NCBI GenBank assembly: GCA_947471985.1
Contig: CANIZL010000014.1
Location: forward strand, 1 to 64,000
From: Verrucomicrobiota bacterium
Lineage (GTDB): Bacteria > Verrucomicrobiota > Verrucomicrobiia > Limisphaerales > UBA9464
Reading direction: 5' to 3'
DNA: 64,000 bases
Shown piece after piece: positions 28,086 through 45,380 of this stretch (position 1 is its first letter; each line of letters opens with the position of its first letter). A program made the position numbers and the translations under genes. The notes under the pieces were generated by a model, which was not told the DNA's origin, made no database searches, and saw only the letters and a program-made list of their open reading frames with translations.

Positions 28086-28247
28086 ATGAGCAAAAAACGG
28101 CGGTTTTTTTTAGTGGAATTGCCGACGCGGGAAGTTTTACGTTTGACCATCAACGACTGGTCCATTAGCTACGCGGCCGACTTTCCGCGAGACAATGATT
28201 TCGGGTTTCCCCCGGATCGGAGTTTTTGCGGGCAGTTGACCGCGTAG
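28086..28247 (+). CDS. Small uncharacterised protein at the head of the secretin operon
   Basis: 53 residues starting MSKKRRFFLVELPTREVL, basic at the N-terminus, with an aromatic/acidic C-terminal half (FPRDNDFGFPPDR) ending QLTA. It has no signal peptide or membrane helix. The gene lies 22 bp after HAD and 10 bp before the PilM-like gene. Not recognised. Confidence 0.55.
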   Translation: MSKKRRFFLVELPTREVLRLTINDWSISYAADFPRDNDFGFPPDRSFCGQLTA

Positions 28248-28257
28248 ACCTCGCATT

Positions 28258-30132
28258 ATGCTGAAGTCAAAAACATTTCTGGGTGTGGATTTTGGGGCGG
28301 GTAGCCTCAAGGCCGCTGAATTTGAAACCGCCGAGGACGGCGGTTTACGGCTGCGTGCGTTCGGGGTAAAGTCCCTGGGCTTGGCGGGCTCACAGGATGC
28401 CCAACGGGAGGCCGTCCTTAAAAAATCGCTCGGTGACTTGCTGGGCGAAGCGGGACTTTCGGCCCGGGACGCCAGCATTTCGATCCCTGGGTACCAGGTT
28501 TTCAGCAAATTCGTCAAGCTCCCGCCAGTTGACACCTCCAAGGTCTCTCAAATCATTGAGTACGAGGCCAAGCAGAATGTTCCCTTCCCGTTGACCGAGG
28601 CGGCTTGGGACCGTCAGATTCTCGGCAACACGGCCAGCGGCGAGGTCGAGGTGGTGCTTTTGGCGGTGAAATCCGCCGAGGTGGAAAAATACTTCGGCAT
28701 CTGCGAGGGCGGCGGACTCAAACTTTCGGTGGTGGACGCTTCGCTGGCGGCACTCGCCAATGCGTTCCGGTACAATTATCCCGATCTCGAAGGATGCAGC
28801 CTCCTGATCGATATCGGCGCCAAGACCAGCAATGTGTTGGTCTTTGAGAAGAACAAGTTTTACGCCCGCAGCATTCCCGTTGGTTCGAATGCGATCACCC
28901 AGGAATTCGGCGCGGAAGTTAAACTGCCGTTTCCTGAGGCGGAAAAGATCAAGACCAACGGCGGGTTTGTCAGTTTGGGTGGTGCCTACGAGGAGCCTGA
29001 TGATCCGAAGTTGGCGGCCGTCTCCAAGGTGGCTCGCAACGTATTGACCCGCCTGCACTTGCAGGTGAATCAGACGATTCAATTCTATCGTACCCAACAG
29101 GGAGGTGCGGCGCCGGTACGGGTGTTCCTTTGTGGCGGTGGCTCGGTACTGCCCTATTCAACGGAGTTCTTCCAGGAAAAGCTCAACCTCCCAGTGGAGT
29201 ATTTTAACCCCTTCCGCAATGTGCAGATCGCGGCGGGTGTTGATGTCGAGGCCTTGGAGAAGGTGGCTCCGTCCTTGGGCGAGGTCGTGGGGTTGGGTCT
29301 GCGGAGCATCGTTCAGTGCCCGATGGAGCTGAACTTGATGCCCAAGGCGTCCCTTTCGCGGCAACAGTTCAATGCCAAGAAACCGTTGCTCCTGGCAGCG
29401 GCCTTTGCGGCCGCCGCTGGGGTATTTGGCTTTGGTGCCTATTTTAGCAAAAAGGCGGACGCCACCGCCGAGGTGATCAACAAGGTTCAGGAAAATCTGA
29501 CCCCGCTGGAGACTGCGTTGACCACTCTGCAGTCCGAACAATCCAAGGTGACCGCCCTGACCAACAAGACCGCCCAACTGGCCGGCTGGCTGCAGGGTCG
29601 GGTTGCTTGGCCTGAACTCGCATTGGAGCTCAAACGTGTGGTCGTCCAAGCCGAGGCGAATTCCGAGAGCAAACTCGCCCGGCCCGTTTCGCTTTGGATC
29701 GAAACGCTGTCCGATCCGATTTTCGGGCCCACTGTTACGGCAGCCACCACGGAGACGTCTTCGTCGGAGGAACCGACGGAGAAGCCCTTGCTGGCGCGCA
29801 TCGACCCGGCCTTGGCCGCACGCTATGGTCTCAAAGTAACCCCAACGCCCGCGGCAACCGAGGATGGCGATGGCGGCGGCGCCCCGAAGGCCAAGGGTTC
29901 TGTTTCGACCAATCAGATCGTCACCTTGAATTTGGTGATCAAGGGAATCATGGCTTCGCCCAACGACGAATCCCAGACGGCCACCATGTACGACTTCCAG
30001 AGCGTGGCCAAGGCAAGTGAGTTCTTTGACAAGGAAGGTACGGAATTGACCGGGAAGGTGGAGAAAGCCGAGGACTCCTTTGTGTTCTCGTTCCCCATCA
30101 AGATCAAATTGAAGCGACCGATCCAACTTTAA
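28258..30132 (+). CDS. pilM: PilM-PilN fusion protein (Amuc_1101-like)
   Basis: 624 residues. The first ~350 form a PilM actin-like (ASKHA) domain: GVDFGAGSLKAAEF at 9-22, KFVKLPP, EYEAKQNVPFPL and LLIDIGAKTSNVLVF, with FLCGGGS at 290. Residues ~357-362 read ELNLMP, the usual start of PilN, followed by a membrane helix (376-396) and a PilN-like periplasmic part with an acidic/Thr-rich insert. Normally PilM and PilN are separate proteins joined by a PilN peptide in PilM's groove; here they are one chain. It forms the inner-membrane platform beneath the secretin. The gene ends 1 bp before the next. Confidence 0.85.
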   Translation: MLKSKTFLGVDFGAGSLKAAEFETAEDGGLRLRAFGVKSLGLAGSQDAQREAVLKKSLGDLLGEAGLSARDASISIPGYQVFSKFVKLPPVDTSKVSQIIEYEAKQNVPFPLTEAAWDRQILGNTASGEVEVVLLAVKSAEVEKYFGICEGGGLKLSVVDASLAALANAFRYNYPDLEGCSLLIDIGAKTSNVLVFEKNKFYARSIPVGSNAITQEFGAEVKLPFPEAEKIKTNGGFVSLGGAYEEPDDPKLAAVSKVARNVLTRLHLQVNQTIQFYRTQQGGAAPVRVFLCGGGSVLPYSTEFFQEKLNLPVEYFNPFRNVQIAAGVDVEALEKVAPSLGEVVGLGLRSIVQCPMELNLMPKASLSRQQFNAKKPLLLAAAFAAAAGVFGFGAYFSKKADATAEVINKVQENLTPLETALTTLQSEQSKVTALTNKTAQLAGWLQGRVAWPELALELKRVVVQAEANSESKLARPVSLWIETLSDPIFGPTVTAATTETSSSEEPTEKPLLARIDPALAARYGLKVTPTPAATEDGDGGGAPKAKGSVSTNQIVTLNLVIKGIMASPNDESQTATMYDFQSVAKASEFFDKEGTELTGKVEKAEDSFVFSFPIKIKLKRPIQL

Positions 30133-30133
30133 T

Positions 30134-31156
30134 ATGGCCTGGATTAAGCGGAACCTCCTGTTCGTAGTGGGGCTGGTAGTGGCGGTGGCGCTCATTGGCG
30201 CCGGCGTCTTCTATCTGCTTCAACAAATGGATCGCTCGACGACAGCTACGGCCGATCTTGAGGGTAAGAATCAAAAGCTGGACCAATTGGTCCAGAATGA
30301 ACCTTATCCGGAGAAGAAGAACATTGATCTTGCCAAAGCGGAGCAACTCAAGCTGCAAAAGTTTCTCAACGAGGCCTTATCCCGCTTCCAGACCAACTTG
30401 GTGGCCAAGGATTTGGATTCTCAGCGTTACCAAAGTCTCTTGCTGGGAACGATTGCTGAATTGGATCGGGCCGCCGAGCAGGCGGGTACAAAACTGCCGG
30501 CCAGCGATTACGCATTTACCTTCGGGCCCCAAAAAGCCAACACCCAAATCCCGGTTTCCCGCCTCGGCGAACTGGCCGCCGAGTTGGCCGACGTTCGGGC
30601 CATCTCGCACGTCCTGTTCCGGGCCAAGGTCCATTCACTCTCCAGCTTGAAGCGAACCGGCGCCTCGACGAACGACTACGGAAATCCCGACATTATCACG
30701 GGTAAGAAACCCGTCACCGAACCGATAACCGGTGCCATCCTCCGCCCGTACGAGGTTCAATTCCAATGCTTTAGTGGAGAAATGGGCGCGGTGCTGGCCG
30801 GATTTGCCAACACGCCCGAGACGATTCTCGTGCGGGCCGTGAATATCCAACGGGGCACTTTGCACACCGAAACCGCCGCCGCTGCTCCCGCCGCCCTCCC
30901 GCCCTCCATGGCTCAAGGCGGCCTTCGGGGAATGGATCCGGCCTTGGCAGCCCGGTATGGATTGGGTCGTCCCCAAGTCGCGCAACCCGCGGCAGTCGCC
31001 GCCGCCCCCGCGGTCAAGGTCGGTGAGGTTGTGGTCGACGAAAAACCCATTCAAGTCTCCATGTTGCTGGATGTGATTAAATTGGCCGCCCCAGGCTCTG
31101 CCCCGGCGGCGGAAAAACCCACCCGCAAAGCAGCGGCCACATCAGAGAGTAACTGA
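30134..31156 (+). CDS. PilO-like protein (Amuc_1100-like)
   Basis: 340 residues. One N-terminal membrane helix (FVVGLVVAVALIGAGVFYLL) is followed by a coiled-coil stretch (about 35-90) and two ferredoxin-like half domains (about 100-250). A Pro/Ala tail follows, ending in a short strand (IQVSMLLDVIKL). This architecture is that of PilO and of Akkermansia Amuc_1100. The protein would align the inner-membrane platform with the secretin. It is 1 bp after the PilM-PilN gene and 9 bp before the next. Confidence 0.8.
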   Translation: MAWIKRNLLFVVGLVVAVALIGAGVFYLLQQMDRSTTATADLEGKNQKLDQLVQNEPYPEKKNIDLAKAEQLKLQKFLNEALSRFQTNLVAKDLDSQRYQSLLLGTIAELDRAAEQAGTKLPASDYAFTFGPQKANTQIPVSRLGELAAELADVRAISHVLFRAKVHSLSSLKRTGASTNDYGNPDIITGKKPVTEPITGAILRPYEVQFQCFSGEMGAVLAGFANTPETILVRAVNIQRGTLHTETAAAAPAALPPSMAQGGLRGMDPALAARYGLGRPQVAQPAAVAAAPAVKVGEVVVDEKPIQVSMLLDVIKLAAPGSAPAAEKPTRKAAATSESN

Positions 31157-31165
31157 TTTCAAGCC

Positions 31166-31981
31166 ATGGACTTTTTAAAGAAGCACTACGAAAAGGCGAT
31201 CCTCTCGCTGGTTCTCCTGGCGCTGGCGGTGGTAGCCGTCTTGCTTTTCGTCGAGGTCGGTACCTTCAAAACGAATCTGGACGACCAACTCAAGAACCGC
31301 ACCGGAGTAAAAAAGAAGGAGTTGCACGCTACGGATTTGACGAGCAACCAGGCCGTCTTAAAGCGCTTGGCGACTGCCATTGAGGTGCCGCTGGGCGGGG
31401 ATCACCCGGCCTTCAATGCCACGCGTTGGAAAAAAACGGCCAACGGCGACGCAGCCCCGGACAACTCCCGTGCCAACCAAGGGCCGGCCGGCATCTCTGG
31501 AGCCACCACGGCACCGTTGTATTTGTCCGTGGAATTTGGCAAGGCGGCTGGCACTGCCGAGGCTCCCCGGTATGAATTCATCATCGGGCGCGAATTTGAA
31601 AAGCAAGCCGCCAAACGTGGCAATATGACCCTCTCCGCCAAGGTCACCGAGGGTATCCGGTTGCCGGGACAGAAATCGGATCTCTTTCGCCTTCTGGAGG
31701 TCAAGGGTGCCGCGATGGAACCTGGGGAATTGAGCATTCAGCTCACCGCCGGCAACGAACGAGCCACCGTAGCCCCCAAGCGCCCCTATCGTCAGGTCAT
31801 GGGCTACTCTGCGCAGTTCACCTATGGCGTTGAAAAACGCCTCTTTCGCAACGTTCGCGTCGACGACTCCTTGCCTCTCTCCGGCGTCACCTACAAAGTG
31901 GTGGCCATCACTGAGGGCGAAATTGTAATTTCCGCACCTAATCAAGTTCGTTCAACCATCAAAGCAGGTTTGACCCCCTAA
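31166..31981 (+). CDS. PilP-like protein (Amuc_1099-like)
   Basis: 271 residues with one N-terminal membrane helix (AILSLVLLALAVVAVLLFV). The periplasmic part holds two beta-rich segments. The last (VTYKVVAITEGEIVISAPN) resembles the C-terminal PilP/GspC-type domain that contacts the secretin. Position between the PilO-like and secretin genes supports this. Confidence 0.7.
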   Translation: MDFLKKHYEKAILSLVLLALAVVAVLLFVEVGTFKTNLDDQLKNRTGVKKKELHATDLTSNQAVLKRLATAIEVPLGGDHPAFNATRWKKTANGDAAPDNSRANQGPAGISGATTAPLYLSVEFGKAAGTAEAPRYEFIIGREFEKQAAKRGNMTLSAKVTEGIRLPGQKSDLFRLLEVKGAAMEPGELSIQLTAGNERATVAPKRPYRQVMGYSAQFTYGVEKRLFRNVRVDDSLPLSGVTYKVVAITEGEIVISAPNQVRSTIKAGLTP

Positions 31982-32032
31982 GGTCATCGCCCACCGGAAA
32001 CCTCATTTTTCAATTCCAACGTGAAGGAAACC

Positions 32033-34801
32033 ATGACCAACGTGTCCCGCATCCTCGGCACGCTCCTCGTGTGTGCCGTTTTACAGACCGCACTGGCGCA
32101 ATCCCCGCAACAACAGGCTGAAGACGAAGCCATCCGGCGGGCTGAGAAGTCCATCCTCTTACGGAAGACTCTTGAGTCCGCCGAAAGCCTCCAAAAGGAG
32201 CGGGATCTCAACGCTGCCGCGAAGGTTTACGACGAAGCTTGGGCGCTCTCTGAATCCGTTGGGCCGAGCTCAGAAGCCGAGCGCGCCATTGCCGCTCACG
32301 GCGTGTCGAGCGTTCGCTTTGCGCTGGCCAATGCCGCCGCCAAAGCGGGCGACTTTAAGGCCGCCGATGCCCACATCGGTCGGGCTTTGAAAGTCGATCC
32401 CACCAACGCCCAGCTGAAGAATTTCAAGCACGAGAATGATCGTCGCTTGGCGGATATGGTCGGCAAGACCCCGAGCGACGTCTCGTTGTCGCTCCTGCCG
32501 GAGTACCATACGAACCAAATCAAGTTCTCCACGATGGTGCAGGACTCCCGGGTCTTGATGGAAATGGGTAAGTTGGAGGACGCCGAAAAGAGTCTTCGCG
32601 AAATCCTCAAGCAGGATCCGGAGAATCAGGGGGCGTACTACTACCTCAACCTCATCGAGGAGCGGAAGTACGATCGCCTGGTAAAGAAGCGCACCCTGAC
32701 CTCCAAGGAGAAGCTCATCGAGCTCGAACGCGCGTGGGATCGGCCGGTCTCCAAGTTGCCGGACAGCAACCCCTATGCCCGCACCAACACCATTCACACG
32801 GGTTACGGCCGCCAGTCGATCCAGAACAAGCTCGACAAGATCATTCTTGATGAAGTTAAGTTCGATGGCTTGCCGCTCGGCGAAGTTGTGAAGTGGCTGG
32901 ACGAACAGACCCGGCTCCGCGACCCGGAACGCAAGGGTTTGAACTTCCTCGTCAGCTCGTCCATCGACGCCCCCCAAAGCACTGGTGCGACGACGATTGA
33001 TCCCGCCACGGGCGCCCCGGTCGCTGCCGCGCAGGCGGAGCAGCTGGACCTGAATTCGATCACGATCAAATTGACCCCTGGCCTCAAGAAGGTCCGGTTG
33101 GCCGACGCCTTGGATGCCATCGCCACGGTGGCGGACCGGCCGATCAAGGTCTCCCTCTTGGAGTACGCCATTGTCTTTACTCAACGGTTGCCGGAAGCCG
33201 AACAGCTCCACACCCGTCAGTTTAAGGTGGATCCGAACACCTTCATGCAAGGTCTCGAGAGCGTCACGGGCTACCCGGTTGGAGCTTCCTTCGGCAATAG
33301 CCAAGGCGGCGGCGGTGGTGGTGGTGGTGGCGGCGGCGGCGGCGGTTCGGGTGGTGGCTCCAGCGGCTCTTCGGGCGGTGTTTTTGCCATCCCGCGGGTC
33401 GATCTCTCGGGTGCCGGTGGCATCACGGGTGGTGCCGGTGGCGGCGGCGGTGGTGCCGGCGGCGGTGGCGGCGGCGGTCAAACGGGCATTGGCATCAATG
33501 GCGTGACCCGTACGAACCTGATGGCGAGCGTTCAAGTCCTCGTCCGTGACTTCTTCCGTGCGGCCGGGGTTAACTTCCCGCAAACCGCTCTGGCCGGTGC
33601 AGGTGGTGCGGCGGGTGGTATTCCGCAGGCCCCTCCGGGATTCCCGGGCGCGGCTGGTCAGCAGCAGCAGGGTGAACAGAAGGCGATCTTCTTCAATGAT
33701 CGTGCTGGTGTACTGTTCGTTCGTGCGACTCTCGCCGATCTCGATATCATCGAGCAGGCCATCCAAGTGTTGAACGTTGCGCCGCCGCAGGTTCAGATCG
33801 AAGCCAAGTTTGCCGAGATCAACCAGAACGACTCCAAGGCCTTGGGCTTTGACTGGTACTTGGGTAATTTCCTAATGGACAAAGGTCGTCTCGGTGCTCA
33901 AGCCGGTTCGGCTCCGGCCTACGAAGGTACCCCCAGCGCGGCGAACCCGGCGGGCAACTTCCCGTACGCCAGCTCCCAGCTCAACAGCTCAACCACGGAT
34001 TCGCTCCTCACGGGCGGGCTCCGCAATCAAGCGGGCATTGGTGGCGATCAATCGGTGCCTGCTCTGGCGACCGTCACGGGTATCTTGACCGATCCCCAAT
34101 TCCGGGCGGTGATCCGGGCCTTGGAACAGCGCGATGGAGCGGAGCTTCTTTCCGCCCCGAAGGTGACGACCCTCAGCGGTCGGCAGGCGCAGATCACGGT
34201 GGCCGACGTGCGCACCATTGTTACGGGTACCGCCCAGAACAGCGGCCAAGGAGCCGGTGGCAGCCAGGCGACGCCGGGTGGCTTGGGTGGCGTGGTACAA
34301 AATACCGGAATTACGCAACAGTATAACACGTCTGCTCTTCCGTTCGGTCCTACCTTGGATGTCATCCCGTACGTCTCTGCGGATGACGTCTCGATTCAAA
34401 TGACGATCATGCCGAGCTACGTTGAGTTCATCGGATATGAAGAGTCCCAGTTCATCAACCGGGCGGTCACGGCCTCGGGTCTGAATCCCTTGCTCCAACA
34501 ACTCCCCTTGCCCCGCCTCCGCGTTCGGCAAGTTACGACTTCTGCGGTCGTTTGGGATGGCCAGACGGTTGTGCTCGGTGGCCTGATCGCCGAAGACGTC
34601 CGTAAACTCAAGGATAAGGTTCCGATTCTGGGTGACATTCCCTTCTTGGGACGCCTGTTCCGGAACGAAAGCTCCGCGACGAGCAAGAAGAACCTCTTGA
34701 TCTTCGTGACGCCTACGATCATCGACCCGGCCGGCAAGCGGATCCATGATATGAATAATCTTCCGTTCGACCCCAACGCGGTCCACGGCGGCAAGAACTG
34801 A
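32033..34801 (+). CDS. pilQ: Secretin (PilQ/GspD family, Amuc_1098-like)
   Basis: 922 residues from the ATG at 32033, with an AAGGAA Shine-Dalgarno just upstream (a GTG at 32021 is the alternative). A signal peptide leads into a TPR-containing N-terminal half (about 30-230) and two N-domains. A glycine-rich insert (about 425-490) contains runs of up to nine glycines. The C-terminal secretin domain is clear: ALATVTGILTDPQFRAVIRALEQ, LLSAPKVTTLSGRQA and a closing VPILGDIPFLGRLFR. It forms the outer-membrane ring of the secretion complex. It is the fourth platform gene of the operon, after the PilP-like gene. Confidence 0.93.
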   Translation: MTNVSRILGTLLVCAVLQTALAQSPQQQAEDEAIRRAEKSILLRKTLESAESLQKERDLNAAAKVYDEAWALSESVGPSSEAERAIAAHGVSSVRFALANAAAKAGDFKAADAHIGRALKVDPTNAQLKNFKHENDRRLADMVGKTPSDVSLSLLPEYHTNQIKFSTMVQDSRVLMEMGKLEDAEKSLREILKQDPENQGAYYYLNLIEERKYDRLVKKRTLTSKEKLIELERAWDRPVSKLPDSNPYARTNTIHTGYGRQSIQNKLDKIILDEVKFDGLPLGEVVKWLDEQTRLRDPERKGLNFLVSSSIDAPQSTGATTIDPATGAPVAAAQAEQLDLNSITIKLTPGLKKVRLADALDAIATVADRPIKVSLLEYAIVFTQRLPEAEQLHTRQFKVDPNTFMQGLESVTGYPVGASFGNSQGGGGGGGGGGGGGGSGGGSSGSSGGVFAIPRVDLSGAGGITGGAGGGGGGAGGGGGGGQTGIGINGVTRTNLMASVQVLVRDFFRAAGVNFPQTALAGAGGAAGGIPQAPPGFPGAAGQQQQGEQKAIFFNDRAGVLFVRATLADLDIIEQAIQVLNVAPPQVQIEAKFAEINQNDSKALGFDWYLGNFLMDKGRLGAQAGSAPAYEGTPSAANPAGNFPYASSQLNSSTTDSLLTGGLRNQAGIGGDQSVPALATVTGILTDPQFRAVIRALEQRDGAELLSAPKVTTLSGRQAQITVADVRTIVTGTAQNSGQGAGGSQATPGGLGGVVQNTGITQQYNTSALPFGPTLDVIPYVSADDVSIQMTIMPSYVEFIGYEESQFINRAVTASGLNPLLQQLPLPRLRVRQVTTSAVVWDGQTVVLGGLIAEDVRKLKDKVPILGDIPFLGRLFRNESSATSKKNLLIFVTPTIIDPAGKRIHDMNNLPFDPNAVHGGKN

Positions 34802-34846
34802 TCCACCGGTATTGTTTGTTAACTGACTTCGCACCCACAAGTGCCT

Positions 34847-36826
34847 ATGACCATAACTCAAGCAACAATTCCAAAAGCGCATTGGTGGCGCTGGGGATTT
34901 AGTCCCGGGTCAGGAAATGCCCGGGCCCGGGTGGCCGTAGCCTTGCTCGGGGCGCCGCTCCTTCTGGCGGCAGCCCCTTACCAACCCGTCGGCGGTGATT
35001 TTCCTCTGGTGACCGCGCAGGCGGGTGACCAGATCACGCCGGCCCTAGGTATCGGCAAGGACGGACGCGGCTACGTGGTTTGGTCTGACAATACCGATGG
35101 CTCCGGCTCCGGTATTGGGGGTCAGGCGTATTCACGTAATGGCATTCGAACGGGCCAGAGTTTCCGTATCAATGCGACGACGCAGGGTGACCAGAGCCAG
35201 CCCGCACTCGCGGTTCTGGCCGACGGTTCCACTTTTGTCGCCTGGCAAAGCGGAAGCCAGGGATCAGCCGCGATCTACGGACGATTGATTGGTGCCGATG
35301 GCATTCTCCGGGACGAGGTCCGTATTTCGGACGCCGATAAGGATGTCCGAACTGTCACCGTGGCGGCCTCGCCCAGCGGCGGCGCCATCGTGGTGTGGTC
35401 ACAACTGGGAGCGGATGCAGCGGATTTCGGCATCGTTTCCCGCCTAATCGGCGCGAATGGCGTGCCGACTGAACCGGCACGGTTGGTTAACAGCTATTCA
35501 TCCGGCAATCAACGCGGTTCCGCGGTAGCGGCTCTGACCGGCGGTGGATACGTCGCGGTTTGGACCTCAGAGGGTCAAACCGGAGGCGAGAATGTAGATA
35601 TCATCGCCCGCAAAATTGGCGCCAACGGAGCTGCCACGGGCGTCGAAGTCGTCGTCAGCCGGGCCAAATCCCTCAATCAATCACCGACCATCCAAGGCTT
35701 GGCCAATGGCGGCTTTGCAGTTGCTTGGTGTTCCTTGGGCGGTTTGGCGGCGCCGACGGCCGGTGGTGCGGCGGCGGCCAGCGCCACAGTTACGCTGAAT
35801 CAGGTGGTGGACGACGTGAGCAAAGTGGTCTGGGGTGTTTATGCCCGCGCCTACGATGCCAGTGCCAGTCCGACTACGGCTGAAGTAGCGGTGTCCAATC
35901 AGCCGGACAATTCCCAATTGAAGCCGTCGTTGTCGGCCAATGAGGACGCCATTGCGGTGAGCTGGAGTGGCAGCGGTTTGGATGGCTCCGGCACCGGCAT
36001 CGGCGGTCGGGTGCTTAGCCTGGGCTTGGTTCCGCTCAGCGATGTGGTCATTGTCAACGAACGCCGCCGTGGCGATCAGGAAACGCCGACGATCATCTCG
36101 GACGGCCCCGGAAGTTTTCTGGCTGTTTGGTCGAATTGGCAGGGGCTCGACTCCGGCATGGACTTGGTAGCTCACCGGTTCCAGCGGATCGAGAATCTCC
36201 TCGCCGCTCCGCCGGCGCCCATCGTTGAGGCCAAGTCGGCCTGGCAGGTGCGCGCGGTCTGGGCCCCCGTTTTGGGTCTTCCGTTGAGTCATTACGAAGT
36301 TTCCTTCGATGGCGGCGCACCGGTAGCCGTAACGGAACCGATCGCCGATTCCGGAGACTATTTTCCGTCGACCTCCCATACGATCAAGTATCGGTACGTC
36401 TTGAGTGACGGTCGGACCTCACCCTACAGCGACAGTGTTACTGTAGTGACTTGGGGTAAGGATCAGAACCTCGATGGATTGCCGGATGACTGGCAGGTCC
36501 AGTATTTCGGGGCCACGCCCAAACTTTGGCCGGCGCCGACCGTTGATAGCGATGGCGATGGTGTTTCAAATCGGGATGAGTTCCTCGCGGGAACCGACCC
36601 GCTGAATCCAGGCGACGCCCTGCGAGTGACGCTCAGTCAGGGTTTTGGCGGTCGCCAAGTCTCTTGGAATGCTAAACTGGGGGCCACCTACCGCGTGCAA
36701 TCCAGCAGTGATCTTGCCCAGTGGCTGGATCTCACCGGGCCGGTCTTTGCTGCCGAAGCCAGCCCATTCATCACTGTTTCGGAAACGAACGGTGCCCTCT
36801 ATTTCCGAGTCCTCCGACTCCGCTGA
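34847..36826 (+). CDS. Large exported protein with propeller-like repeats and C-terminal TSP3/beta module
   Basis: 659 residues from the ATG at 34847 (a GTG at 34841 is possible). The N-terminus has a positively charged region and a hydrophobic signal (VAVALLGAPLLLAAA). The body has repeats such as GYVVWSDNTDGSGSGIGG, TFVAWQSGS, AIVVWSQLGA and VSWSGSGLDGSGTGIGG, suggesting a beta-propeller. A fibronectin III-like stretch follows (about 455-540). Near the C-terminus are a thrombospondin type 3 calcium loop (DSDGDGVSNRDEF) and a module with TYRVQSSSDLAQW. It follows the secretin gene by 45 bp, so it is a plausible substrate or surface component. Confidence 0.75.
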   Translation: MTITQATIPKAHWWRWGFSPGSGNARARVAVALLGAPLLLAAAPYQPVGGDFPLVTAQAGDQITPALGIGKDGRGYVVWSDNTDGSGSGIGGQAYSRNGIRTGQSFRINATTQGDQSQPALAVLADGSTFVAWQSGSQGSAAIYGRLIGADGILRDEVRISDADKDVRTVTVAASPSGGAIVVWSQLGADAADFGIVSRLIGANGVPTEPARLVNSYSSGNQRGSAVAALTGGGYVAVWTSEGQTGGENVDIIARKIGANGAATGVEVVVSRAKSLNQSPTIQGLANGGFAVAWCSLGGLAAPTAGGAAAASATVTLNQVVDDVSKVVWGVYARAYDASASPTTAEVAVSNQPDNSQLKPSLSANEDAIAVSWSGSGLDGSGTGIGGRVLSLGLVPLSDVVIVNERRRGDQETPTIISDGPGSFLAVWSNWQGLDSGMDLVAHRFQRIENLLAAPPAPIVEAKSAWQVRAVWAPVLGLPLSHYEVSFDGGAPVAVTEPIADSGDYFPSTSHTIKYRYVLSDGRTSPYSDSVTVVTWGKDQNLDGLPDDWQVQYFGATPKLWPAPTVDSDGDGVSNRDEFLAGTDPLNPGDALRVTLSQGFGGRQVSWNAKLGATYRVQSSSDLAQWLDLTGPVFAAEASPFITVSETNGALYFRVLRLR

Positions 36827-36828
36827 AC

Positions 36829-38388
36829 ATGAAGATTTCTCCATACTCTCTGGCCGCACTGGCGGCCGTAAGCTTGGTTCCGCAGGCCAATGCCTTCAGT
36901 CTCTTGGGCAGTGCGGACGCCAGTCAGATCTCTGATATCGGCTATTTTGCCAACGGGGAGGGCGTGCGCACGTACTCCCAGCAGGGTGACGTCGGCGGCC
37001 CCAGGAGCATCGGCGGCGAATTTCGCTGCTCCACTCCGGTACTCACCTTCGGTTTCGACGCCACGTTCCTCGACTTCTTCGGCACCAACGGCGTCATTGC
37101 CGTTCAGAACGCGATTCAAATCCTGAATGATTTGAGGCCGGCATCGCAGATGTCAGCGGGCTTGACCGAATATCCCCTCCGAACGTCCGGCGTAAACTTT
37201 GCGGCCCAACGGTTGCATCTTCTGGACCTCAAGTCCTTCACCCTCTCAATTCTGCTGGAACAGCTGGGATTGGCCGCGCCTGAGCGGTGGATTTGGTCCA
37301 TCAAGCAACGGTTCACGATCAATAACGTGAATAACTTTCTGGTGTTCAATCGGAACTTCGATCCGGTTTCCCAGAACTTCTCACCATTTGTCAACGGGAC
37401 CCGTTATAGCTTTGTAATTGGTTCGTACACCTTGCCTAGCGGCACCGTGTATTACAATACCCGCAAAGTGGCGATCGATGCAGCGGAGCCCAACATCACT
37501 GTCTCTGCGTTGAATGGCGTCGCGGCCGGTGAGGATGGCTTGGATGACCGGCTTCTCCGTGTCATGCGGTATAATCCAGGCAACCTCGAGGGTAGTGCGG
37601 GTGGTGGTGCCTGGGGGTTGTATTTCTCCGGTCTGACCCGCGATGATGCCGGGGCCGTTCGCTATTTGCTCGATCCGAGAAACAAGAACTACGAATCTGC
37701 CCCAACCGGATCGGCCGCGCCCTCCGGTGCTGGTGTGATTTCCGTCAAAGCATCGGGTAACTCCGGTGGCAGTTCCGGTTCCACGAGTGGTGCTTGGACT
37801 GTGGTCGACAACTCGCTCACCGCAGGCGGTGGTACCGGTGGTACCGGTGGTACTACCAATGTAACCACGGCGGTTTTCCAGAACGAGTCGCTTCGCGCAG
37901 GGGTCGACAAAATCACCTTTGTTCGGGTCGATCTGGACCCGCTGACCCGCCGCCTCGCCCGACCCTTGGCGGTGCAGTATAGCGAGAAGGTTTCGACCAA
38001 TGGTGTCAGCTTCACCCAGCGGGTTGAACGGATCATCATCCAGCCGGATATCGTGTTCTCGGCGGCGGACCTTGGCGCCACGCAAGCGGTGCCGTTTGTC
38101 TACAATCGGTCGGTTAATTTCACCCAGCCAGCCCGCACGGCGGCCGATGTTATCAATAATCCGAATAATGCCTTGGCTTATCCCGGCAATATTTCCGGCA
38201 ACGTGGACGTTACCTTCAGTTCGATCGGACCACACTATTTGACTGGTGATGTCGGTTCTCACCAGGGTGATAGCGACTTTGGTTTCTTGTGGGGAAGTTT
38301 TGATGGTACCACCAACCGTCCGGTGGCGTTTCCGGAGGGCCGGGTCGACCTGATCCAATTGGAGCAGGCGGCATTGAAGGAGAAATGA
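36829..38388 (+). CDS. Exported protein of the secretin operon (unknown)
   Basis: 519 residues from the ATG at 36829, 2 bp after the preceding stop. A signal peptide (MKISPYSLAALAAVSLVPQANA) is followed by a soluble beta-rich protein with no recognised domain. A Gly/Ser/Thr-rich stretch (about 300-345) contains the repeat GGTGGTGGT, encoded by a near-perfect DNA repeat at 37829-37858. It could be a periplasmic or surface protein handled by the secretin. Confidence 0.75.
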   Translation: MKISPYSLAALAAVSLVPQANAFSLLGSADASQISDIGYFANGEGVRTYSQQGDVGGPRSIGGEFRCSTPVLTFGFDATFLDFFGTNGVIAVQNAIQILNDLRPASQMSAGLTEYPLRTSGVNFAAQRLHLLDLKSFTLSILLEQLGLAAPERWIWSIKQRFTINNVNNFLVFNRNFDPVSQNFSPFVNGTRYSFVIGSYTLPSGTVYYNTRKVAIDAAEPNITVSALNGVAAGEDGLDDRLLRVMRYNPGNLEGSAGGGAWGLYFSGLTRDDAGAVRYLLDPRNKNYESAPTGSAAPSGAGVISVKASGNSGGSSGSTSGAWTVVDNSLTAGGGTGGTGGTTNVTTAVFQNESLRAGVDKITFVRVDLDPLTRRLARPLAVQYSEKVSTNGVSFTQRVERIIIQPDIVFSAADLGATQAVPFVYNRSVNFTQPARTAADVINNPNNALAYPGNISGNVDVTFSSIGPHYLTGDVGSHQGDSDFGFLWGSFDGTTNRPVAFPEGRVDLIQLEQAALKEK

Positions 38389-38401
38389 ACTGCGAAGTCT
38401 C

Positions 38402-41400
38402 ATGAAAAATTCGATTTCTAGAAACATTATCCGGTCGGGTTTGGGCTTGCTGGCAAGCTTGATTCCGGTGCTGGGGACGGATGCCGTCTATCAGAACGAT
38501 GGAACCATCACCGCGGCCGACACTCCGCCGCAGGTGGATGCGCTGCAGTTCATCAACAACGGGAGCATGACGATGTCCATCATCAGCTCCCCGTTCGAGA
38601 CGCGGAATACAACCTCGTTCATCAACCGCGGAATCATCCGGGCTTCACCCGGTGTGCGCTTCGAGAAGATTACCCATCAGTCCGTTCGGACGCCAGCGGA
38701 GAGCTTCATTGCCACGGCCGGCTCCCGGCTCGAAGTCAGCAGTTCGCAGGCGCTGGCTGGCTTCAATTTCACACCGGCCCAGCTCCTGGCGTTGGACCAG
38801 CTGGGGATTGACCTTACCACTCTGCTGATCCCCACCGATCAAAATCCTTTTCAGGATTATCAATCGGCGACGATGACGATTTCGGCCAAGACCATCGATA
38901 TACGTGGCCGGTTGCAAACGGACGTTGGCAGCTCGATTGAGTTGACCGGTACCGATGTCCGGTTGATCAACGCCAGTGTTTACGGGTCGCCGCCGCCGGG
39001 ATCTTCCAGTCGTCAGGTTGATACCCAACCCGACGGAACCATCGACTACGTCATAGCTCCCATTGGTTTGACGCCGAGTTATGGTTTGGGGCTCGATGTT
39101 GGAGTGACGTATGAGGGCCTGGCCTCGGCGACCAAGGATATTCAAGTTCTCCAGACGCTTTCCGGACCGGTTATCAACTTGGTCGATACTGCGACCGCAC
39201 TGACACCGGCGTTCCGATACCGCGACCGAGGCACCCAGCTTCGTGCCGCCCCGGATGACCGACTGCCCCGTCAGTCGATCGATCTCTCCACCTCGCGCGC
39301 GCATTCCTATTATATCGTTACGAATGCCCCAACACCCACGAATCAAACCGTGCGGGCGAGCTTTGTGGGGGCTAGCGATCCGGACGTGCTGGTGGATCTT
39401 ATTTATGGCGCGGGTGGCTCCATTCGACTTCTACTCGGAACGACCATCACCAACGTGGCGGATGGTGGTGTGGATCTTATTGCCTTGTCGGTGGACTCGT
39501 CGTTCCCGACCGATCCGCGCTTGGGTTTTGTTCCCACGGATAAGAGCGCCTTGGATGTCTGGCCTTTGGAAATGTCCGTACGCCGGTATGCGGCACAGAG
39601 CATTGCCATCAGCCGCAAGGACGCGGTCACCGGAAACGTTACGAACATCCTCTCCCGCGCGAATCTGCTTTCGGTAATGCGGACGCTGACCCGTTCGGGC
39701 CGCCCGTCGACCAACGCTCCGTTCCGGCCGGATCTCTTCACCAAGGTGTATCTGCCAACGAACCTGTCGCTGACTCCGGTGGCCTTTACTAATCTCGCGG
39801 CGACGAATCCATTCGTAGCGTTCGGATTTGAATTTAAATCAACTCCGTCAGATACGGAATTGATCGATACTCCCTCCAAGAGCTTTTTGACCAACAATAC
39901 GGGCCGGGTTTCCATTAGTTCCAAGACACTGGATTTGACCCGCACCCGCATCAAATCGCAGGGCCCGGTCGTAATCGAGACGGATGATCTAGTGGCGACG
40001 ACGGGGTCGGCCATTGAGGCGCCGTATGTCTCCTTGAATCTGGGTAATACCAGTACCAACGGACTCGTGATTGAAGGCTTGATTCGGCCGCTCTTTGAGA
40101 CTCTCTCGGGCAGTGTCGATTTCTTCTCCAGCACCTGGACGAATAACGCCACTTTCCCTGATCCCACTTCGACAAACACGCCGCCCACGGATCTAACCGC
40201 GGAGGTTGGCTTCCAATACACGGTCGCGAATGTGAACGTCACCCGCACTCAGTTGACTCGGATCAATGATCTGGTGGTCCGGAGTTCCAAGGTGACCGTC
40301 AATGATTCCGGGACCATCGAGAATCTGGCGGCTTCCGATACTGCGGAGTTGAATATCAACGGACAGATTGCCTTCCAGAATACTCTGGTCGCGAGTGGCG
40401 CGAATTTGGCCAGCTTGAAGCGATTGAATATCGGGTCCGGCGGTTCGCTGCAGGTTCCGAGTCTGGTATCTCTGGGCACTGCCGGTAATCGCCTCGATTC
40501 TGTTTCCGTCCTGGGAACACTTCAGGCCGCGGGAATTCGTTTGGATAGCAAGACGATCACCGTTGGTTCGGCGGCCTCGCTGCGGACGGTCCGCGGAACT
40601 TTGGATCTCACGGCGGATACTCTCACGGTGTCGGATTCGGGCACGGCGACGGCCGGTATCCGGGGCAGCGGTCCCTCGGCGATCACCGTTGGAAATCTGA
40701 ATCTCATTCGGGGTTCGATTGGTGGAACCAACTCTGCCTTGCGGTTGAGTGTGACCGGTGCCTTCAACGCACCGGCCGCTTCAGGCGGTATTATCTCGGT
40801 CCCCAATGGATTGGAATTCAACACGCGTCCGGCGAGTGCTGATTTGAGCGGGTTGACTATTCGATCGGAAGTGGCGCCTTATGCGGATGCTGCGTTTGTC
40901 TGGCCCGGTACGGATCTGGGCGCAGTGGTGGCCGGCTTTATTGGCCCGAGTAACTTGGCCATCAAGGCGCTTGCCTTGGGGGGTGATAACTACTCCACGA
41001 TTAGCTTCAGTGGCCCTGACGCGAAGAATGCTCTGTACGTGCAGCAGATTCAATTCCTGCCTGGGGCGATTCCGGTGGTCACGAATATCACTATTTCGAC
41101 CAACCTCAGCGGGGTGAAGCTCACCAACACCGTCATTACGCCCAATTTGGGCTTTGTGAAGGAACTGATGCAGATTCCCTCCTCGTTCACCGTTTACTTC
41201 GGCTCGGCCATTACCGATGGCGGTGTCGATATCTCGGACGCTTTGGATCGGGTGATTCCGGAACGTTTGCGCTTGGTCAAACTGCCCAAGGCTCCTGCGA
41301 CGGTGGTCAATGTCACTTTGGACAATGGGGACATTCTGTCGGTGCCGATCAGTGTGGTGGAATCGCTGAGCTTGGACTCCGACGGTGACGGTGTGGCCAA

Positions 41401-41659
41401 CGGTTGGGATGCGAAGCCGTTCGAAGGCATCCGTCTGGCGGTTGAATCGACCGAAGCGGGTGGCGAACAATTGGTGAAGCTATCCTTTATGGCGGGTGCC
41501 GGTGGTAGCTACCGCGTGGAAGCCAGCAGCGGTTTGGGTTCGTGGGGCGTCGTCCAGACCGTCCAGAATCCGTCCTCCGATCGGAAGCTCATCGAGCTGT
41601 ATGATCGTAGCGGCACGGCGGGTGCAGCGCGCAACTATCGCGTGCGCTACTCGTACTAA
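38402..41659 (+). CDS. Giant exported beta-helix-like protein
   Basis: 1085 residues, 13 bp after the previous stop. A signal peptide (GLGLLASLIPVLG) leads into long Asn/Thr/Ser/Gly-rich repeats typical of a right-handed beta-helix (DALQFINNGSMTMS, FINRGIIRASPG). The C-terminus has a calcium loop (LDSDGDGVANGWD) and a module with GSYRVEASSGLGSW, as in the 34847 gene. No autotransporter barrel is present. It would form a fibre or adhesin outside the cell, exported by the secretin encoded upstream. A strong terminator follows. Confidence 0.75.
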   Translation: MKNSISRNIIRSGLGLLASLIPVLGTDAVYQNDGTITAADTPPQVDALQFINNGSMTMSIISSPFETRNTTSFINRGIIRASPGVRFEKITHQSVRTPAESFIATAGSRLEVSSSQALAGFNFTPAQLLALDQLGIDLTTLLIPTDQNPFQDYQSATMTISAKTIDIRGRLQTDVGSSIELTGTDVRLINASVYGSPPPGSSSRQVDTQPDGTIDYVIAPIGLTPSYGLGLDVGVTYEGLASATKDIQVLQTLSGPVINLVDTATALTPAFRYRDRGTQLRAAPDDRLPRQSIDLSTSRAHSYYIVTNAPTPTNQTVRASFVGASDPDVLVDLIYGAGGSIRLLLGTTITNVADGGVDLIALSVDSSFPTDPRLGFVPTDKSALDVWPLEMSVRRYAAQSIAISRKDAVTGNVTNILSRANLLSVMRTLTRSGRPSTNAPFRPDLFTKVYLPTNLSLTPVAFTNLAATNPFVAFGFEFKSTPSDTELIDTPSKSFLTNNTGRVSISSKTLDLTRTRIKSQGPVVIETDDLVATTGSAIEAPYVSLNLGNTSTNGLVIEGLIRPLFETLSGSVDFFSSTWTNNATFPDPTSTNTPPTDLTAEVGFQYTVANVNVTRTQLTRINDLVVRSSKVTVNDSGTIENLAASDTAELNINGQIAFQNTLVASGANLASLKRLNIGSGGSLQVPSLVSLGTAGNRLDSVSVLGTLQAAGIRLDSKTITVGSAASLRTVRGTLDLTADTLTVSDSGTATAGIRGSGPSAITVGNLNLIRGSIGGTNSALRLSVTGAFNAPAASGGIISVPNGLEFNTRPASADLSGLTIRSEVAPYADAAFVWPGTDLGAVVAGFIGPSNLAIKALALGGDNYSTISFSGPDAKNALYVQQIQFLPGAIPVVTNITISTNLSGVKLTNTVITPNLGFVKELMQIPSSFTVYFGSAITDGGVDISDALDRVIPERLRLVKLPKAPATVVNVTLDNGDILSVPISVVESLSLDSDGDGVANGWDAKPFEGIRLAVESTEAGGEQLVKLSFMAGAGGSYRVEASSGLGSWGVVQTVQNPSSDRKLIELYDRSGTAGAARNYRVRYSY

Positions 41660-41680
41660 GCCGGTACGCCGATAACACAA

Positions 41681-41713
41681 AGCGGGCGTGGATTAGTTTC
41701 CACGCCCGCTTTT
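41681..41713. terminator. Intrinsic terminator between the secretin operon and pyrE
   Basis: AGCGGGCGTGGA (41681-41692) and TCCACGCCCGCT (41699-41710) form a perfect 12-bp stem with a 6-nt loop, followed on the plus strand by TTTGCTTTTG. On the minus strand the T-tract is weaker, but the same hairpin could serve pyrE. Confidence 0.88.
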
Positions 41714-42317: not shown

Positions 42318-42470
42318 GTCGGTGGACGGTAGTCGCAGGCGATCCGCTTGCCCAGCAAAGTCCGATCGGGACGATGGGATGGAATGATTAACCGGATTTG
42401 TGGGCTCATTGAGGCAAAACTTTTACTTCCTGACGCCCGGCCTTTAAGGCGACGTTCCGTTCCGTTGCCT

Positions 42471-45326
42471 ATGTCAGAAATCAACACGGATCAACCGCGT
42501 CGATTCGCCACGCGGGTTCTCCCCTGGCTGATCGCGGTGGTTTTCTTTGCCGCTTACCTGGCCACGCTGAACCACTGGGTGTCAGCGAACAGCCTGGGCT
42601 TGGTCTCGCAGATTGCGGGATGGGACGGGCAGGTGCCATTTCAGGCGCCCTTGATGTGGGTAATCACCCGGCCGTTGATGTGGGTGGGTGAGGCGAATCT
42701 GCCGCTGGCCGCCAACGTATTGACCGCATTCCTGGCTGCGAGCAGCGTGGGTTTGCTGGCCCGATGTGTGGCCATTTTTCCGGCGGATCGAACCCACGCC
42801 CAGCGGATTCGTGGACAGTTGGATGGCCTGCCGCTGGACGCGCCACTGAATTGGGTGCCCCCGCTGCTGGCTGCCGGTCTTTTGGGATTCCAGCTGACCT
42901 TTTGGGAGCATGCGACAGTGGTCACCGGGGAGATGTTAAACCTCTTCCTCTTTGCGCTGGCGGTTCGTTTTCTCGCCCAGTACCGGCTGGATGAACGGGA
43001 CCTGCGATTGCAGCAATTTGCGTTCGTGGTGGCGCTGGGCTGCGCCAATGACTGGTCCATGGTGGCGTATCTGCCGCTCTTTCTGGCCGCGCTGATTTGG
43101 ACGGTTGGTTGGGAATTAATGAACGCCCGTCGATTGGTGACCCTGATGGTCAGCTTTGCCTTCGGCCTGCTTTTGTATCTTCTGATGCCCATTGTGGCCT
43201 CCGGGGCTCCCGGCATGCCCGGCTCGTTTGGCGGGCGTTTCGTCGAATTGCTCAAGTATCAGAGAACACTGTTGGCAAGCACTCCGCGCTCGAAGCCGTT
43301 GCTGCTGGCGCTGATCCTTCTCCTGCCGGTGGTCTTCGTTTCGATCCGCTGGCGCAGTGGTGGCACCTCCGGCACCGATCAGAAGCTGCGGAATTTCTTT
43401 TTGATCCTGCTGCGCGTCCTGTGGATGGGGGCCGGCATCTATACCGCTTTCGATCAGGTCATCAGTACGCGGATGCTGGTGACGACCAGTGCCCAGTCGG
43501 GGATGCTGCCGTTGCTGACTTTTTCGTGGTTGGGTGCGCTGGCGGTGGGGGTTTCGGCGGGATGGTTCATTCTGATTGGAACGGCGGCGCCGGAGAAGCG
43601 GTGGGAGCGTACTTCCAGTGGGGCTAATGTCCTGGCGAAGCTGGGGGCAGCACTTTGTGTGTGTGCCGCAGTGGCCGTACCGGCGGCCTTGGTGTGGCGC
43701 AATTTGTCGAAAGTTGGGCTGCAGAATGGGCCGGTTCTGGCCCAGTTGGCGGACGATCTCAAGCGCTCTTTGCCGGATAAGCCGTCGTTGGTGCTCACTG
43801 AGGATGCTGCGCTTTCCGTGATTCTCCAGGCGGGGCTGCGACGGGATCCGTCGGCTCCCCGACATGTCCTGCTCCAAACGCGCTCGGCTGCGCTTTCGGA
43901 ATACCGGCAGCAGCTGGCCGCCCGGCATGGGCAGGATTTTCCGGCGCTGACAACGTTTGCCAAAGCTGAGACCAATGTGGCCGGGGTATTCCTCGAACTC
44001 CTCTACGCCGCCACGCGGGACGGCCGGGCCTTTTATCTCAATCCCCCGCTCTATGATTCCCGAACCACGTTCATTTTGGAATCGTTGCGAGTTCGGCCCC
44101 AGGGTTTGATCTACGCCATTGAATCTTACGCGCCCGGGGAGATTAGTCCCCCGCCGTTGACCGCGGCCCAGTCGGATCGCGTGGTGGCGGAGTGGAACGA
44201 GCGGTCGTCGCGGGTTTCGGCGATGGTGAGTGGTGTCGCGGCCAAGCTGCTGACTGCGGAGATTGCCGCCCGGATTTACAGTCGCGCGGCCAACGCCAAT
44301 GGCGTGGAATTGCAGCGGGCGGGCCGGCTACCGGAGGCGGGAAAGTTGTTTGCACTGGCAAGGGATCTGGTGCCGGAGAACGTGGCGGCGGTGGTCAATG
44401 CTGGTGTTAACGGTGCCCTGCAGAGCCGGGTGCCGCTCACGGCGGCCAAGAGCGCTGAATTGGCGAAGCCCCTGGCGCAGTCCGGTCAGACGCCGTTGGC
44501 CGTGGTCGAGCAGTTTGGACCCGTGGATGAGCCCCTGTTTCTCAGCACGCTGGCTTTGGCTTTGACCGAGGGGCCCAATCCACTGGCTCGCGCCGCGGCC
44601 GTGGCCTCCAGCCGCGCCTTGGAACTGGCTCCCGATAGTGTGACGGCGGCCGATGCTTTTGCCCGGGCCGCACTGGCGGCCGGTGAGCCGAAGCTGGCCT
44701 TTGATGCCATCGCCAAGGTCCGACGCCTTGCCAGCGCGGGGCAGGTCAAGAACGAGGTGCTGGCGGGAATTGAACTTTTGCAGGCGCGGCTTTCCGTGGG
44801 GGCCCGTGACATGGTGGCCGCCGAGAAGACCTTGGTGGAAGCGTGGAAGCGATTTCCCGACGATGCGCCCCTGATTGAGGGAATCTGTGATTTTTACACC
44901 TCGCTGGGGATGTCGACCAATGCGCTGCCGTACGTGGATCACTATCTGGGGCGGCATAAGGATAATGACACCATCCAGGCCCGACGCGGATCGCTGCTGG
45001 TGGAATCCGGGCGGGCGGCGGACGCAGTGGAGGTTCTGGACGCCGTTCTGGCCCGCCGGCCGAACGATTACGAGGCCCGTCTGGGTCGCGGAGCAGCGCT
45101 GCTGATCCTGCAGAAGCCGGCGGCGGCCCGGGCTGATTTTGAATTCGTCCGGCAGGTAAATCCGAATTTCGCCCGGGCCCTCCTGGGGCTGGGGCGCGCC
45201 TGTCAGGCGGAGCAAAATTCCGCCGACGCGCAACGCCACTTTCAAAAGGTGATCGAGGTGACCCCCACGAATTCCGTGTATCATCTCGCCGCCAAGGAGC
45301 TGCTGGCCCGGCTCGGCAACAAATAG
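42471..45326 (+). CDS. DUF2723 membrane protein with C-terminal TPR repeats
   Basis: 951 residues from the ATG at 42471. The N-terminal ~420 residues hold 10 or more membrane helices with the DUF2723 pattern (AAYLATLNHWVSANS, LTFWEHATVVTGEMLNL). The C-terminal ~350 residues form TPR-like helices (EAGKLFALARDLVPENVAAVVNAG, ADAVEVLDAVLARRPNDYEARLGRG). DUF2723 proteins resemble lipid-linked glycosyltransferases; the enzymatic role here is unknown. It is followed by a GT4 and a WecA-type gene, so cell-surface glycan synthesis is plausible. Confidence 0.85.
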   Translation: MSEINTDQPRRFATRVLPWLIAVVFFAAYLATLNHWVSANSLGLVSQIAGWDGQVPFQAPLMWVITRPLMWVGEANLPLAANVLTAFLAASSVGLLARCVAIFPADRTHAQRIRGQLDGLPLDAPLNWVPPLLAAGLLGFQLTFWEHATVVTGEMLNLFLFALAVRFLAQYRLDERDLRLQQFAFVVALGCANDWSMVAYLPLFLAALIWTVGWELMNARRLVTLMVSFAFGLLLYLLMPIVASGAPGMPGSFGGRFVELLKYQRTLLASTPRSKPLLLALILLLPVVFVSIRWRSGGTSGTDQKLRNFFLILLRVLWMGAGIYTAFDQVISTRMLVTTSAQSGMLPLLTFSWLGALAVGVSAGWFILIGTAAPEKRWERTSSGANVLAKLGAALCVCAAVAVPAALVWRNLSKVGLQNGPVLAQLADDLKRSLPDKPSLVLTEDAALSVILQAGLRRDPSAPRHVLLQTRSAALSEYRQQLAARHGQDFPALTTFAKAETNVAGVFLELLYAATRDGRAFYLNPPLYDSRTTFILESLRVRPQGLIYAIESYAPGEISPPPLTAAQSDRVVAEWNERSSRVSAMVSGVAAKLLTAEIAARIYSRAANANGVELQRAGRLPEAGKLFALARDLVPENVAAVVNAGVNGALQSRVPLTAAKSAELAKPLAQSGQTPLAVVEQFGPVDEPLFLSTLALALTEGPNPLARAAAVASSRALELAPDSVTAADAFARAALAAGEPKLAFDAIAKVRRLASAGQVKNEVLAGIELLQARLSVGARDMVAAEKTLVEAWKRFPDDAPLIEGICDFYTSLGMSTNALPYVDHYLGRHKDNDTIQARRGSLLVESGRAADAVEVLDAVLARRPNDYEARLGRGAALLILQKPAAARADFEFVRQVNPNFARALLGLGRACQAEQNSADAQRHFQKVIEVTPTNSVYHLAAKELLARLGNK

Positions 45327-45380
45327 CCAATCGAGGTCGCCGGTTTCAGTTCGCTGACCGTGCCGGAGACCTTGTGTGCC

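Follow-up and report, generated by a model that had tools for sequence, protein, structure and literature searches.

A secretin operon of the Amuc_1098-1101 type linked to three exported proteins in Limisphaerales

Organization of the operon

The window, that is, the whole stretch of 64,000 nucleotides analyzed here, carries a compact operon in which a secretin and its platform genes are followed by three large exported proteins, designated E1, E2, and E3. The features are as follows (CTD, C-terminal domain shared by E1 and E3).

28086..28247, + strand: ORF of 53 aa, probably not a gene
28258..30132, + strand: PilM-PilN fusion (PilMN; Amuc_1101/MUL2B type), 624 aa; Pfam PilM_2, 7.5e-35; TIGR01175 pilM, 153 bits (cut-off 133); NF045709 Amuc_1101_fam, 482 bits (cut-off 650)
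30134..31156, + strand: PilO-like inner-membrane protein (Amuc_1100 type), 340 aa; NF038287 Amuc_1100_fam, 2.2e-19, 70 bits over residues 1-319 (cut-off 180); position kept in relatives
31166..31981, + strand: TM-anchored periplasmic protein at the PilP position (Amuc_1099 type, weak), 271 aa; NF042425, E = 0.0023, 17.5 bits (cut-off 50); homologous and syntenic in 20 loci
32021/32033..34801, + strand: secretin (Amuc_1098/PilQ type) with N-terminal TPRs, 926 aa from GTG or 922 aa from ATG at 32033; Pfam Secretin, 7.7e-34; NF042912 Amuc_1098_fam, 343 bits (cut-off 750)
34841/34847..36826, + strand: E1, exported repeat protein, 659-661 aa (659 from ATG); signal-like N-terminus; TSP3_bac, 1.9e-6; C-terminal FN3-like domain (alignment A3); secretin-linked
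36590..36823, + strand: FN3-like CTD of E1 (alignment A3), best of the 85 CTD matches in the genome
36829..38388, + strand: E2, exported, 519 aa; N-terminal half matrixin-like without the zinc-binding motif (AlphaFold2 model); order-specific
38402..41659, + strand: E3, exported, 1085 aa; predicted beta-solenoid with a calcium-loop stretch and a C-terminal FN3-like domain
41405..41656, + strand: FN3-like CTD of E3 (alignment A3 and structure model)
41679..41712, + strand: intrinsic terminator, perfect 14-bp stem with a T-rich tail

Within the platform, the genes from PilMN to the secretin are separated by 1, 9, and 39-51 bp. An earlier note on this DNA had described a compact secretin operon composed of a 53-residue gene, a PilM-PilN fusion, PilO-like and PilP-like genes, and a secretin. 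The fusion, the PilO-like protein, and the secretin were recovered by Pfam and NCBIfam, while the 53-residue gene had to be dropped, since no relative locus compared contained a convincing homologue (best tblastn E = 0.3). The label "PilP-like" is a weak one, being based on gene position and a weak match to the Amuc_1099 family, with no Pfam match. In NCBIfam, the platform falls into the Amuc_1098-1101 families; the matches of PilMN and the secretin are strong and that of the PilP position is weak, and all four proteins scored below the cut-offs of these families. This homology bears out the comparison with the Akkermansia platform made in the earlier note. The three exported proteins (659, 519, and 1085 residues) ending at a strong terminator were also confirmed. 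In addition, the operon was found to be free of a pilin, PilB/PilT, PilC, and prepilin peptidase, as had been claimed: the ten proteins scanned across and beside it gave no match to PilB, PilT, PilC, or prepilin peptidase, and a class III prepilin motif was absent from every operon protein.

Relation to known systems and location of the motor genes

The platform has the same gene order as the MUL2 locus of Akkermansia muciniphila (Amuc_1098-1102), with homologous PilMN, PilO-like, PilP-position, and secretin proteins. However, Amuc_1102 (MUL2A) lies upstream of PilMN in MUL2 and was not found in the order studied here, whereas the operon has the three added exported proteins and an unconserved 53-aa ORF upstream. 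Work on MUL2 in Akkermansia has followed the locus across Akkermansiaceae and proposed a role in attachment for it; CoaE and Rho have been described beside it, and A. muciniphila requires the mul genes to accumulate glycans (PMC13174399). The Akkermansia secretin is its most abundant outer-membrane protein (PMC4960237). The operon also resembles the PilMNOP-PilQ set of type IVa pili in its PilM match above the cut-off, its secretin, and its bitopic PilO and PilP-position proteins, but PilM and PilN are fused and the PilP-position protein is TM-anchored and lacks a Pfam match. As for the type II secretion system, none of GspE, GspF, and the pseudopilins is in the operon.

The genome does contain motor genes. 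PilB, PilT, a second PilB, and PilC, together with prepilin-type proteins, are located outside the operon on contig C37, so the hint in the earlier note that a motor is lacking is true of the operon alone. Six secretin-domain matches were found in the genome, none of them on C37, and contig C9 has another, T2SS-like set, which includes a secretin of its own. The other secretins are not close to that of the operon (next best match in the genome, 2e-18). Among the PilM matches in the genome, only that of the operon fusion is strong; a weaker one lies on contig C27. A motor contig without a secretin makes a split type IV pilus-like machine the simpler reading, and by exclusion the C37 motor would be the partner of the operon secretin.

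These genes could alternatively form an ordinary type IVa pilus, with the operon as PilMNOPQ, the motor and pilins elsewhere, and E1-E3 as tip or surface adhesins decorating the pilus. Besides the motor and prepilin-type genes on a contig without a secretin, the PilM match beyond its curated cut-off and the predicted beta-solenoid of E3, a fold of the kind seen in adhesins, are in favor of this explanation. However, E1-E3 have no match to a known pilus tip protein, no major pilin was assigned to the operon secretin, and the Akkermansia relative has been tied to attachment and mucin transport (PMC13174399). We regard the ordinary pilus as a possible but tentative explanation.

Linkage of the exported proteins to the secretin

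The earlier note had proposed a test, across relatives, of the linkage between the three exported genes and the secretin, and this linkage held with very few exceptions. The order PilMN-PilO-PilP-secretin-E1-E2-E3 was kept in all 20 loci read whole, with the provisos that PilMN of L070 is cut by the contig start, that the PilO gene of L069 is absent from the gene string and present in the coordinate list, and that E3 of L086 was missed by the pairwise search and recognized by position, length, and alignment. Further families showed the same gene order, and one genome (G036) has two complete copies of the whole unit from PilMN to E3. Among 80 named loci from GTDB genomes, the 58 with at least 4 kb upstream were used for a linkage count, and the secretin, E1, E2, and E3 occurred together in 54 of them. 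Two of the others are cut by a contig end and lack E3 alone, and the remaining two are orphan copies of E2: the genome of one (L249) also has an operon copy (L272), and the other (L276) comes from the same isolate as an operon copy (L220). At the genome level, E2 was present in 49 of 58 relatives, most of them MAGs, and all 49 have the cognate secretin; 7 have neither, and in the remaining 2 (G017 and G020) the secretin match is truncated or breaks off close to the end of a contig. Such strict one-to-one linkage favors machine parts over mere substrates, although E2 paralogues also occur outside the operon, which counts against E1-E3 being parts of the machine. Within the family, identity was 33-40% for E1-E3 versus 63-66% for PilMN and the secretin. 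This much lower conservation would fit surface parts, as surface proteins often diverge in this way.

Distribution in the phylum and gene neighborhood

PilMN of the operon type was detected in 347 of 388 sampled Verrucomicrobiota genomes. E2 was found only in the genome studied here and one other of the same order; on this sampling E2 is confined to a single order of the Limisphaerales/Pedosphaera type. In other orders, a small exported protein encoded upstream of PilMN belongs to the Amuc_1102 family (MUL2A), and its Akkermansia-type copy matched PDB 7DSZ (Amuc_1102) with E = 4e-138. A MUL2A profile, whose alignment includes the protein solved as 7DSZ, matched 255 of the 388 phylum genomes, and it had no match at E<=0.1 in the 58 genomes of the order. 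This absence is one of profile matches, and extreme divergence could be an alternative explanation for it. The presence of E1-E3 thus coincides with the absence of MUL2A in the sample, suggesting that MUL2A may have been replaced by E1-E3.

Loci of other orders often have a 5'-3' exonuclease-like gene, a GT-C/TPR gene, CoaE, and Rho after the secretin; the names exonuclease, CoaE, and Rho come from inspection of the sequences by eye. In the order of the window, the exonuclease gene is often still found 3' of the secretin, and CoaE lies after E3 or after the neighbor of E3. The retention of this exonuclease and CoaE flank indicates that E1-E3 occupy a site inside an old gene neighborhood, and E genes between the secretin or exonuclease and CoaE were found solely in the order without detected MUL2A. 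In the window, the operon is followed on its 3' side by a gene for a TPR protein of 992 aa that weakly matches a TMEM260-like O-mannosyltransferase (42348-45326) and then by a glycosyltransferase gene (45360-46547). Homology of these two genes to the GT-C/TPR gene of other orders was not established by the locus comparison.

The persistence of exonuclease, CoaE, and Rho genes with no obvious functional tie to the platform raises the question of whether E1-E3, too, are exported proteins with no relation to it beyond a common transcription unit. This is unlikely, since E2 is missing from relatives without the cognate secretin, the entire unit is present twice in G036, and this position of the E genes in the neighborhood is specific to the order without MUL2A.

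Other loci showed variations of their own. Two tandem secretin genes follow the PilP position in L157, L158, and L159, which belong to other families of the class. Several MAG records titled "Akkermansia muciniphila", e.g., L203 (CAMDGV010000026.1), contain a Limisphaerales-type operon and are probably mislabelled; the E2 loci under this title were left out as evidence for Akkermansia.

E2, a probable pseudo-matrixin

The AlphaFold2 model of E2 had a mean pLDDT of 62.7, with blocks near 90 at residues 71-110. Foldseek gave no significant match to the model, and Pfam and PDB sequence searches of E2 yielded nothing usable. After re-alignment, the best 50 matches were all MMPs, including the bacterial karilysin, with Z of 3.6-4.3. 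The part of the model that aligns to the catalytic domains of MMPs is about residues 55-283; most alignments cover about 95-100 residues, and Z reaches 4.3. E2 may therefore have a fold like that of the matrixins (MMPs and karilysin; peptidase M10). However, it differs from them in the active site: HExxH was absent from all 41 E2-family frames, so that the matrixin motif HExxHxxGxxH does not occur, and histidines are missing from the helix expected at the zinc site (LKS..LS.LLEQLGLA.PER). A conserved segment, LTRDD.GGLRYLY, resembles the final matrixin helix. For a profile comparison, true matrixins were sought among the loci of relatives, where four other metalloproteases were found instead. 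Taken together, the model suggests that E2 is probably a pseudo-matrixin. An active protease was considered and rejected, since no family frame has HExxH.

Two further observations concern this family. Long E2 paralogues of about 990-1300 aa are encoded outside the operon, several per genome, in the G057 and G040 loci L174, L175, and L178-L180. In some relatives (L070:11062-14718 and L084:157-3966), a subtilase (S8) with a CTD of the E1/E3 type is encoded after E3, near a protease-like E2.

E1, E3, and their C-terminal domain

E1 is a repeat protein with a TSP3 calcium stretch, and it shares its CTD with E3. The E3 model (mean pLDDT 74.5) is all-beta, and its structural matches at Z of about 9-11 are beta-helix proteins, including autotransporter passengers, tailspikes, the S-layer protein RsaA, and tapirin, with the caution that many unrelated proteins align to beta-solenoids with comparable Z. 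Residues 994-1085 are predicted to form a C-terminal FN3/Ig-like sandwich (Z of about 7-8). Foldseek gave no significant match to the E3 model, and the PDB sequence search of E3 nothing usable. In the model, E3 forms a beta-solenoid with an FN3-like domain at its C-terminal end. The TSP3, alignment, and model data place a calcium-loop stretch and a beta-sandwich C-terminus in E1 and E3 and a beta-solenoid in E3, in agreement with the earlier note, which had guessed at one beta-helix-like protein and two with calcium-loop/beta C-terminal modules. The tapirins of Caldicellulosiruptor, beta-helix adhesins whose genes lie close to those of type IV pili, offer a comparison for E3: a tapirin domain aligned to its residues 649-882 with Z of 10.1 and an rmsd of 2.8 over 182 residues, and the PDB sequence search gave no usable match in support of this likeness. 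Our literature search found no papers tying tapirins to type IV pili, and the paper retrieved with "Limisphaerales" and "pili" concerned xylan degradation.

The CTD is an FN3-like domain of about 80 aa with the pattern YxVQxSxDLxxWxxL...FYRV and no Pfam match in E1 or E3. It has 85 matches in the genome, those in the window being the two in E1 and E3 and one at 62571-62681, and it occurs in 159 of the 388 phylum genomes. Two genomes with no detectable PilMN also carry it, namely G145 (one contig, 100% complete) with three matches and G315 with seven. Judged from this distribution, the CTD is a general module of exported proteins and not a tag of the operon machine. A domain shared by so many exported proteins does not mark a special role for E1 and E3. 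A platform-specific sorting signal, similar to that of the T9SS, was rejected because the CTD occurs in complete genomes without the platform.

The CTD would be central to another explanation, in which the platform is a dedicated secretion system that exports E1-E3 and other CTD proteins with the CTD as the sorting signal. Its presence in E1, in E3, in the adjacent subtilase of some relatives, and at about 80 other places in the genome is consistent with this. However, G145 and G315 have the CTD without detectable PilMN, most CTD proteins are unlinked to the platform, and E2 of the window has no such domain. A dedicated secretion system is thus improbable.

Proposed role of the operon

Our preferred reading, to which we give a probability of about 0.6, is that the operon encodes the envelope half of a MUL2-like machine together with three dedicated, lineage-specific exported proteins for holding or capturing glycans, with the motor encoded elsewhere. 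PilMN, the PilO-like protein, the PilP-position protein, and the secretin would span the envelope as one half of a machine like the type IV pilus, for which the PilB/PilT/PilC genes found elsewhere in the genome would supply the motor. E1-E3 would be dedicated parts of this machine and not casual cargo. They may cross the outer membrane and sit at or outside the secretin, where, in place of the pilin-like MUL2A, they might hold or capture large glycans and so serve attachment or uptake. In this arrangement, E2 might be a pseudo-enzyme with a binding or structural function, and E3 might form a beta-solenoid stalk or adhesin. The glycan role of E1-E3 is borrowed from Akkermansia, where a role in attachment has been proposed and glycan accumulation and the abundance of the secretin have been reported, and on this basis E1-E3 are proposed as perhaps an order-specific surface module for adhesion or glycan capture. 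Secretion, pilus, and uptake functions are not discriminated by the sequence.

In Pedosphaeraceae, laminarin accumulates in the periplasm (PMC13174399), and "selfish" polysaccharide uptake has been reported. A MUL2-like machine of Limisphaerales that lost its pilin-like surface protein and gained an outer module of three proteins, a pseudo-matrixin and a beta-solenoid among them, might capture long polysaccharides at the secretin, pass them on to the periplasm, and thereby explain this selfish uptake, an extension that we consider rather doubtful. The locus shows a phylum-wide platform for which at least one order has a different putative surface protein. A pseudo-protease within a pilus-like machine, if true, would be unusual. 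The import of large polysaccharides by Verrucomicrobiota outside the gut is the wider question addressed here, and E1-E3 are named candidates for tests of polysaccharide grip and import in an order that includes the selfish-uptake Pedosphaeraceae.

Giant secretins

Ordinary secretins have a few Secretin_N stretches. Two members of the family encode giant secretins as single ORFs of 4214 aa (L278:2070-14714, - strand) and 4305 aa (L279:2094-15011, - strand), with 25 and 27 Secretin_N stretches, respectively, and one secretin domain each. In the genome studied here, contig C32 (L110:1-11441) contains two overlapping ORFs, one of 2080 aa that runs off the contig start and has 19 Secretin_N stretches and one of 1742 aa that has 16, and the frame break between them may be genuine or a sequencing error.
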